A stretch of 64,000 nt of DNA from Clostridia bacterium (lineage in GTDB: Bacteria; Bacillota; Clostridia; UBA1381), in contig JAFSXU010000055.1 of assembly GCA_017443895.1 (NCBI GenBank), forward strand, positions 1-64,000, read 5' to 3'. The translations under genes and the position numbers were made by a program. Positions within the stretch are counted from its first letter, which is position 1; each line of letters begins with the position of its first letter. The notes under the pieces were generated by a model, which did not search any database, had not been told where the DNA came from, and worked only from the letters and a program-made list of their open reading frames with translations. Shown here in pieces: positions 6,790 through 9,370 of the stretch.

Positions 6790-7575
6790 TTATTTTCGGT
6801 CAACAAGGCTTAAAAATTCCTTGGTACGCGCATTTTTCGGATTGTCGATAACCTCCTCGGGTGTGCCCTCCTCGGCAACAACGCCCTTATCCATAAAAAT
6901 GATACGGTCGGACACATTTTTTGCAAAGCCTATCTCATGTGTAACAATAACCATGGTTATATGCTTTTGTGCAAGGTCCTTTATAACCTTTAAAATCTCA
7001 CCCGTAAGCTCGGGATCAAGCGCGGAGGTCGGCTCGTCAAAGAACAGTATCTTTGGCCCTAACACAAGTGCCCTTGCAATGGACACTCTTTGTTGCTGAC
7101 CGCCCGATAATTCGCAAGGATAATTTAAAAGCTTTTGAGTAAGCCCTACCTTGTCAATTACATCCCTTGCCTTTTCCTCAATCTCTCCTAATATCTGCCT
7201 TTTATTCTGCTTGTAGTCGGGGCGTTCCTTTGCAAGGAGCTTGGGCGCAAGCATAACATTTTCAAGCACATTATACTGCGGAAACAGATTAAACTGCTGG
7301 AACACCATTCCGAAATTTAGCTGTGCCTCACGGATTTTTGCAGGTGTTTTTTTCGTCTTATCCGTCGCGTCAAATATTACATTTCCGTCTACCATAATAC
7401 GCCCGCTATCGGCAGTTTCAAGGAAGTTAATACACCGTAGGAGTGTTGTTTTTCCGCTTCCCGACGAGCCTAAGATTGAGATTACCTCGCCCTTTTCCAT
7501 AGAAAATCCGACGCCCTTTAAAACCTCGGTTTTTCCGAAGCTCTTATGCATATCCTGAATTTCCAATATACTCAT
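6790..7575 (-). CDS. Polar amino-acid ABC transporter ATP-binding protein (GlnQ type)
   Basis: A 261-residue ABC ATPase that powers uptake of a polar amino acid. Walker A is GSSGSGKT 36-43, the Q-loop lies in VFQQFNLF (91-98), the signature is LSGGQQQR 156-163, and Walker B ends in D180-E181. These sequences place it in the GlnQ/HisP group. It is the third gene of the binding protein-permease-ATPase operon and ends before a terminator. A GGAA site precedes the ATG. Confidence 0.95.
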
Positions 7576-7676: not shown

Positions 7677-8312
7677 CTATCCCTTGTAATAATCCATTTT
7701 CTTTTCAACCCATGACATAAGCACGGACAAAATTCCCGTAAACAACAGGAAATACAGCGCCGATGTAAACAGCGGCCATATAACGCCCGATGCGGCAAAG
7801 CGCTGTGCGTTCATCAGAATTTCCGCCACGCCTATAACCCTTGCTAAAGCCGTATCCTTAACAAGTGTTATTATTTCATTACCCATGGGCGGTGTTATAC
7901 GCTTTATTACCTGGAACAGCACAATCTTAAAGAAGGTCTGAGACTTTGTAAGTCCTAAAACCTGACCTGCCTCGTACTGACCGACGGGTATACTCTCTAT
8001 ACCGCCTCGGTAAATCTCGGAAAAATATGCGGCATAGTTAATTACAAACGCAATCAATGCCGCCGTCATTCTGTTTGACATAGGTATTCCCAAAAGCAGA
8101 CCGGGCGCATATAAAACCACGAACAGCTGAAGCATCAGAGGCGTACCTCGGATTATCCATACAAAGGTTTTCATTACCCACTTTAAAGGCTTGAACCTTG
8201 ACATTGTGCCAAATGTTATGACCAGTCCCAACGGCACTGCCATAACAAGTGTAAGCACAAACAGCAGGCAGTTTGTGCCAAAGCCGTGTAACAGTTGAAT
8301 TAAGGCATTCAT
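7677..8312 (-). CDS. Polar amino-acid ABC transporter permease (HisM/GlnP type)
   Basis: A 211-residue membrane permease with about five transmembrane segments. The EAA loop (about 114-133, starting EAGQVLGLTKSQ) is the ATPase docking helix, and the WIIRGTPLMLQLF segment is typical of the HisMQ family. Only one permease gene is present, so the channel is probably a homodimer. It is translated from a GGGGGAAA site. A hairpin separates it from the binding-protein gene upstream. Confidence 0.93.
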   Translation of the reverse strand: MNALIQLLHGFGTNCLLFVLTLVMAVPLGLVITFGTMSRFKPLKWVMKTFVWIIRGTPLMLQLFVVLYAPGLLLGIPMSNRMTAALIAFVINYAAYFSEIYRGGIESIPVGQYEAGQVLGLTKSQTFFKIVLFQVIKRITPPMGNEIITLVKDTALARVIGVAEILMNAQRFAASGVIWPLFTSALYFLLFTGILSVLMSWVEKKMDYYKG

Positions 8313-8350
8313 TTTATGTAGTTTCCCCCTCGAAAAAATGCAGTAAACGA

Positions 8351-8370
8351 CACCACAGACATCTGTGGTG
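8351..8370 (-). promoter_or_regulatory. Intercistronic hairpin between binding protein and permease
   Basis: CACCACAGA and TCTGTGGTG form a perfect inverted repeat in the 89-bp gap. It is followed, on the transcribed complement, by TTTACTGCATTTTTT. Such hairpins often protect or partly terminate the message so that the binding protein is made in excess. Confidence 0.6.
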
Positions 8371-8401
8371 CCGTACCTATTAACCGTATTTTACAGTCTG
8401 A

Positions 8402-9298
8402 TTACTGTGCCAATGCTTTCATTATTGCATCAGCCTTATCAGCCTTCATAACCATTGCCTGAGTATTGTACATATATGGTGTTGAAACCTCCCACATATC
8501 CTTTCTCTCCTCGGTTATGCACATACCGTTCCATAAACAGTCGATATTCTTTGATGCAAGCTCTGTTTCCTTAGCCTCCCAGCTAATCTCTACAAACTCT
8601 ACATCAATACCCAAAATTTCGCCTACTGCCTGAGCAAACTCTGTATCAAAGCCTGTCCAGGTTACGCCGTCGTCTGCAAGGTAGTTCATCGGCGGATAGT
8701 TTGTAACGCCGATTGTTAAAACGCCCTTTGACTTAACATACTCTAAATCGCTATCAGCAGCAGGGATCGTCTCATTTTCTGTACCCTCCTGATCCTTTGC
8801 TGCCTCAACACTCTGCTCCAAGCCGTATTTTTTAGCAATCTCGTCAAGTTTGCCGTTTTCTCTTAAAGTCTTAATCGCATCGTTTACAGCAGGGCAAATA
8901 TCACTGCCCTTTCTGAATGCTATACCGAAATACTGATCGCCGAACTTATTATCCATATTTATTACAAGGTCTGAAAAGCTTGAGCCCTCGCCCTCAATCA
9001 TGCCCTGCGCAATTACAGAGTCAACAACCGCAACATCCGCAACACCGTTTTCAACATCCATAAGAGCTGTTGCCATTGAGTCAACCGCCGAATACTTTGA
9101 CCTTGCAAAATAATCCTTTGCGATTACCTCTACAGTGTCGTCATTTGCATCGTCCATAACGCCTGTAACCTTTTCCTCACCTGTTGAGCCTGCCTCTGAT
9201 ATTACCTTTATTGTCTCTGCCGTAAGCTCGGTGTTTCCACAGCCTGTCAAAGACACAAGCATCATTGCCGCCATAATTAAACCAAAAATTTTTTTCAT
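8402..9298 (-). CDS. Amino-acid ABC transporter substrate-binding lipoprotein with permuted lobes
   Basis: A 298-residue lipoprotein with a signal peptide and lipobox LTGC (C20). It belongs to SBP family 3, but the two halves are swapped. Residues about 27-163 (VISEAGSTGEE to LDEIAKKYGLEQS) correspond to the second lobe, which normally comes last. Residues about 184-290 (GVLTIGVTNYPPMNY, GFDTEFAQAVGEILGIDVEF, WNGMCITEERK) are the first lobe. A 20-residue acidic linker joins them. The last residues (KADAIMKALAQ) would connect naturally to the first lobe-2 residues, as expected for a circular permutation. Both lobes look complete. The ribosome site is GAGGAAA. First gene of the operon. Confidence 0.85.
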   Translation of the reverse strand: MKKIFGLIMAAMMLVSLTGCGNTELTAETIKVISEAGSTGEEKVTGVMDDANDDTVEVIAKDYFARSKYSAVDSMATALMDVENGVADVAVVDSVIAQGMIEGEGSSFSDLVINMDNKFGDQYFGIAFRKGSDICPAVNDAIKTLRENGKLDEIAKKYGLEQSVEAAKDQEGTENETIPAADSDLEYVKSKGVLTIGVTNYPPMNYLADDGVTWTGFDTEFAQAVGEILGIDVEFVEISWEAKETELASKNIDCLWNGMCITEERKDMWEVSTPYMYNTQAMVMKADKADAIMKALAQ

Positions 9299-9341: not shown

Positions 9342-9370
9342 ATTTTACTATGATAAAGCGTTAAAGTCAA
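9342..9370 (-). promoter_or_regulatory. Promoter of the amino-acid ABC transporter operon
   Basis: On the complement TTGACT (9365-9370), 17 bp, TAAAAT (9342-9347), 43 bp before the binding-protein start. Confidence 0.65.

Follow-up and report, generated by a model that had tools for sequence, protein, structure and literature searches.

The 298-residue lipoprotein encoded at positions 8402-9298 of the minus strand is a complete circular permutant of a family-3 polar amino-acid-binding protein (SBP_bac_3, PF00497), in which the signal peptide still leads the chain and almost no sequence has been lost. The gene lies in the window, meaning here the whole 64,000-nucleotide stretch analysed (Clostridia bacterium, GCA_017443895.1, contig JAFSXU010000055.1). 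It is very probable that the product is a working lipid-anchored importer protein and a natural type II SBP_bac_3 permutant created via duplication, and that the same swap has taken place at least five times in related Clostridia.

The open reading frame begins with ATG, and its N-terminus (MKKIFGLIMAAMMLVSLTGC) is a lipoprotein signal. SBP_bac_3 was the sole Pfam family detected (104.9 bits, against a gathering cut-off of 26.4) and was found in two stretches, the best of which placed profile positions 1-95 at residues 194-289 (E 3.5e-30). Comparison with the solved structure 3hv1 gave the same exchanged order, chain residues 16-117 aligning with residues 186-288 of the lipoprotein and 147-254 with 58-165. 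On a reference profile of 270 columns built from 45 unpermuted relatives, residues 1-25 fell on columns 2-26, residues 29-165 on columns 148-269 and residues 176-297 on columns 27-147; the two exchanged segments are homologous to one native protein and jointly cover the native chain, and the normal SBP_bac_3 order (lobe 1a, hinge 1, lobe 2, hinge 2, lobe 1b) is absent. An earlier note on this DNA had read the gene as a signal peptide followed by swapped parts and had suggested aligning the halves to PF00497. That reading is borne out, with the native signal peptide at residues 1-25, what is normally the second part at 29-165 and what is normally the first at 176-297, and the PF00497 halves aligned in swapped rather than normal order. 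The smooth join that it proposed between the C-terminus and the first lobe-2 strand corresponds to the unbroken passage from profile column 147 to 148. By homology, the permutant is expected to share the two-lobed fold of its relatives. Its parts were mapped as follows.

8402..9298, minus strand: permuted amino-acid-binding lipoprotein, whole gene (open reading frame; PF00497 in two swapped stretches; profile mapping)
9239..9298, minus strand: signal peptide with lipobox cysteine, residues 1-20 (...LVSLTGC), N-terminal as in native proteins (residues 1-25 match columns 2-26; sequence)
8942..9214, minus strand: main part of lobe 2 (residues 29-119), natively after hinge 1, with Asp93 equivalent to GlnBP Asp157 (native columns 148-223; GlnBP mapping)
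8915..8941, minus strand: hinge 2 equivalent (residues 120-128; GlnBP 181-189) (GlnBP mapping; GlnBP hinge residues from PMC13229503)
8819..8914, minus strand: C-terminal helices of lobe 1 (residues 129-160), with which the native chain ends (native columns up to 269)
8789..8818, minus strand: old C-terminal tail EQSVEAAKDQ (residues 161-170), matching native ...TDSVAAAANAQ-stop (compared with L010, L013, L014 and L015)
8729..8788, minus strand: old N-terminal linker from behind the cysteine, EGTENETIPAADSDLEYVKS and the next K (residues 171-190), now internal (compared with native CGSQNASETSTESDWAYVQ and similar)
8477..8728, minus strand: N-terminal part of lobe 1 (residues 191-274), natively first, with Arg265 equivalent to GlnBP Arg75 (native columns up to 124; GlnBP mapping)
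8462..8476, minus strand: hinge 1 equivalent (residues 275-279; GlnBP 85-89) (GlnBP mapping)
8405..8461, minus strand: new C-terminus, formed by the first ~19 lobe-2 residues and ending KADKADAIMKALAQ, with last codons GCACAGTAA that match the native 3' end of L015 (GlnBP mapping; 3' end comparison)

In Escherichia coli GlnBP, residues 5-84 together with 186-224 form the large domain, residues 90-180 make up the small one, and the hinges span 85-89 and about 181-189 (PMC13229503). The new termini of the lipoprotein fall between the equivalents of GlnBP residues 108 and 109, inside lobe 2 (the small domain) and about 19 residues past hinge 1. The swap of lobe order claimed in the earlier note stands, but the break that it had placed between the lobes is actually within lobe 2. 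The block at the N-terminus is made up of most of lobe 2 and the C-terminal helices of lobe 1; the rest of lobe 1, along with hinge 1 and the opening ~19 residues of lobe 2, forms the C-terminal block. Neither hinge segment is broken. The lipid anchor, natively ahead of lobe 1, stands ahead of lobe 2 in the permutant. The amino-acid clamp, used here as a membership test, is kept, GlnBP Arg75 corresponding to Arg265 (after the lobe-1 TIT motif) and Asp157 to Asp93 in lobe 2; we take these residues to hold the alpha-carboxyl and amino groups of the ligand.

The same permuted gene, at 86% identity, was found in a second congeneric MAG (G002; CACZPW010000283, 'uncultured Ruminococcus sp.' RUG12844), which rules out chance and also the assembly error that had been raised earlier as a concern; the permuted order is fixed in both species. 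On a closer profile of 289 columns, the congener's protein covered columns 1-27, 146-289 and 19-146. The search for an unpermuted ancestor in related genomes recovered normal-order orthologues of about 70-77% identity in two other congeneric genomes (G001 and G003) and in further close relatives, and the permutation consequently arose within the genus. In a tree of the adjoining permease and ATPase, the two permuted genomes are sister to the normal-order L013/L014 (support 98/96) and nested within further normal-order branches (96/89, 97/91 and 99/95).

The lipoprotein gene is the only close copy in its genome and the first gene of a permease/ATPase operon, in which the following further features were recorded.

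7677..8312, minus strand: ABC permease of the same operon (PF00528)
6790..7575, minus strand: ABC ATPase of the same operon, GlnQ/TcyN-like (PF00005; NCBIfam)
8347..8374, minus strand: 12-bp RNA hairpin directly past the stop codon, separating the binding-protein gene from that of the permease (fold z -3.35 for 8300-8410)
9342..9370, minus strand: promoter-like TTGACT-17-TAAAAT upstream of the gene (consensus scan only)

PF00528 and PF00005 directly downstream, with TIGR01726 (HEQRo_perm_3TM) above its cut-off, identify a polar amino-acid operon, and the permease and ATPase are intact, in keeping with the earlier description of the rest of the operon as ordinary. Rfam gave no riboswitch and no T-box near the operon, so the substrate is narrowed no further than a polar amino acid. 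Between the two permuted binding proteins dN/dS was 0.08 at a dS of 1.04, which is near saturation (Nei-Gojobori), compared with 0.04 for the partner permease and 0.06 for the ATPase of the same two species and 0.13 for an unpermuted binding-protein pair; the permuted gene is under purifying selection. This constraint, the retained clamp, both hinges and the intact operon are why we regard the permutant as functional, as had been thought probable, and most likely it would bind a polar amino acid and pass it to its own transporter. A terminator-like hairpin lies upstream of the promoter-like sequence of the binding-protein gene. Hairpin-like repeats occur at the same 3' place in the genes of unpermuted relatives as the hairpin at 8347-8374, which probably makes the downstream genes less strongly expressed than the binding protein.

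Both junctions retain pieces of the native gene. The internal linker reads KKYGLEQSVEAAKDQ-EGTENETIPAADSDLEYVKSKG, and normal-order relatives end in KYGLTDSVAAAANAQ-stop and start after the lipid cysteine with GSQNASETSTESDWAYVQNKG; because its halves match these native sequences, in both permuted species the linker consists of the old C-tail plus the old N-linker, and this is the 'acidic linker' previously noticed between the swapped parts. The new C-terminus ends GCACAGTAA in both species, nine bases that are identical to the native 3' end of L015 and on which we base the reading that it appears to retain the last codons of the old gene. Retained junction pieces are what is predicted by the published 'permutation by duplication' route (PMC3320104). 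By that route, an ordinary binding-protein gene would have been duplicated head to tail and in frame, fusing the old C-tail into the N-linker immediately past the lipid-anchor cysteine; the first copy would then have shed its N-linker and the start of lobe 1, and the second copy most of lobe 2, up to the final codons ahead of the stop. Neither the promoter and signal peptide nor the 3' end would have moved, and the outcome would be a typical two-lobed clam that retains both hinge strands unbroken but carries its lipid anchor and new termini on lobe 2 rather than on lobe 1. The junctions thus fit the tandem duplication and partial deletion proposed in the earlier note; the route itself is one that we infer, and no fused two-copy intermediate was present among the junction matches listed (no open frame above 369 residues).

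A conserved gene of ~355 residues belonging to the Fe-ADH family (PF00465) lies between the binding-protein and permease genes of the normal-order L010, L011, L013, L014 and L015. Its orthologue is missing from the operon in both permuted species, which have only a paralogue of 36-38% identity elsewhere; the deletion that trimmed the second copy may have taken this gene too.

Further permutants were sought in relatives with a junction profile composed of the old C-terminus, the linker and the old N-terminus. Full-span matches, clearly separate from half-span matches, were obtained in 14 of 391 genomes sampled from the class; they were also found in 9 of the 16 genomes of one family, and in 2 more genomes in the phylum. 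Together with earlier finds, the junction-profile matches amount to 22 permuted proteins in 21 genomes. In type A the cut lies ahead of the first lobe-2 strand, and in type B elsewhere in lobe 2.

A1: the window pair, cut at columns 147/148
A2: L049, L050, L051, L090 and L093, cut at about columns 135/136
A3: L099, L129 and L130, type A cut
B (seven proteins) and B2 (five proteins): another lobe-2 loop, at about columns 206-208, equivalent to GlnBP 165-169

A tree of 65 binding proteins was built with permuted sequences rearranged to normal order; L129 and L130, found later, were left out. This tree requires five order changes, all five forced by well-supported branches. Approximately unbiased (AU) tests rejected a single origin for A1 and A2 (p 2e-85), A2 and A3 (9e-45), all type A (3e-42), B and B2 (5e-7) and all permuted proteins together (1e-8), these p-values being indicative since the groups were named after the tree had been seen. 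On the binding protein's own tree, therefore, swaps of this kind have at least five independent origins, at least four of them beyond that of the window. The permease and ATPase tree needs 8-9 label changes as against these five, from which it follows that some permuted binding proteins have moved between transporters and that the histories are partly different.

Four other explanations were weighed. That a misjoin in assembly or binning created an artificial order might be entertained for a draft genome of 77 contigs; with the same order in an independently assembled congener at 86% identity and a dS of about 1, and with 20 further permuted copies, other cut points included, across 19 further genomes, its probability is negligible. 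The gene could instead be a degenerating relic that has ceased to bind or deliver its substrate, given its altered order and its restriction to just two species in the A1 clade. A relic is hard to square with a dN/dS of 0.08, the preserved clamp residues and hinges, and a sole close copy that still heads its operon, and we consider it very improbable.

As to how the order changed, fission of a gene into halves that later fused in opposite order is a general published route to permutation (PMC3320104), but no separate half-genes were seen, and a linker made of old C-tail and old N-linker, with the old 5' and 3' ends both kept, is a direct prediction of duplication; fission and fusion are accordingly the less likely course, though a more serious contender than any of the other three. 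What look like repeated events could also be a single old permuted lineage that was dispersed by gene transfer and in places reverted to normal order, as the clades A2, A3 and B each extend across several families, and the incongruence of the transporter and binding-protein trees indicates that transfer occurs. The five origins forced on the binding-protein tree, the rejection of all mergers tested and the different cut positions among the groups leave a single lineage with very little probability. A hybrid of two different paralogues was rejected since separate trees of the halves put both in the same close clade, without supported conflict.

Natural permutation of binding proteins has precedents. 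TpMglB-2 (Tp0684) of Treponema pallidum and its Gram-positive relatives ('Type Ic / Cluster Bc') is likewise a lipid-anchored ABC-importer binding protein, which binds glucose and changes shape upon binding (PMC4990184). It has a type I sugar-binding fold, a first-lobe cut and a fourth hinge crossing, and is an old protein that has diverged to 13% identity across its permuted part (PMC4990184), whereas the window lipoprotein has the type II amino-acid-binding fold, a lobe-2 cut, two hinges, a recent origin and unpermuted sister species. The type Ic definition (type I three-hinge sugar fold, permuted first lobe) does not describe it, as it is a PF00497 protein with two hinges. The glycine betaine binders OpuAC (2B4L) and ProX (1R9L/1SW1) are also related by natural permutation between bilobed binding proteins, but were recognised by structure only, at <24% identity, in a different family and without sister-species pairs (PMC2395249). 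A rearranged type I binding protein made in the laboratory shows that folds of this kind tolerate an altered order. The closest known proteins are the unpermuted SBP_bac_3 orthologues L010, L013, L014 and L015 and the solved 3hv1 and GlnBP, which are homologous along the whole chain (at 70-77% identity and with a like operon type within the genus); they differ in having the normal order, and several carry the Fe-ADH-like gene that the permuted species lack. Within open-licence papers, every naturally permuted binding protein that a literature search turned up belonged to the type I sugar group or the glycine-betaine group, and the search gave no report of permuted family-3 amino-acid binders, sister-species pairs or repeated origins.

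The great age of many known natural permutations leaves their ancestor and mechanism to guesswork. The window permutation lies within a genus, its sisters at 70-77% identity survive, both junction scars are legible, and relatives supply at least four parallel events that have other cut points. Such matched natural pairs make it testable how permutations arise, what they cost and whether an anchor on the other lobe alters transport, and they offer before-and-after cases of protein rewiring in gut-type Clostridia. Permuted binding proteins are ready-made scaffolds for biosensors, and annotation that depends on order catches just one half of them. In each of the five events lobe 2 is opened and the lipid tether is transferred to it from lobe 1; permutation might conceivably have been selected as an adaptive rewiring instead of being a neutral accident, a suggestion that we hold to be doubtful. 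If it is true, the tether shift would alter how the anchored protein meets the permease, or its opening and closing.

Several individual loci merit mention. L040, suggested as a permutant by a loose span rule, proved on profile mapping to have the normal order. The A3 permutants L129 and L130 (G518 and G782) lie outside the class of the window, occur with a permease and an ATPase and are close in sequence to the in-class G444, and transfer of a permuted cassette is possible. In G110, L096 (contig C30) is a permuted lipoprotein for which no permease or ATPase was recognised within 4 kb downstream. The same genome encodes a B2 permuted domain (L128:99-1085, minus strand; also L097) with an N-terminal membrane anchor and a long acidic linker that replace the lipobox; these genes have no adjoining transporter genes, and the permuted domain has apparently been put to another use.
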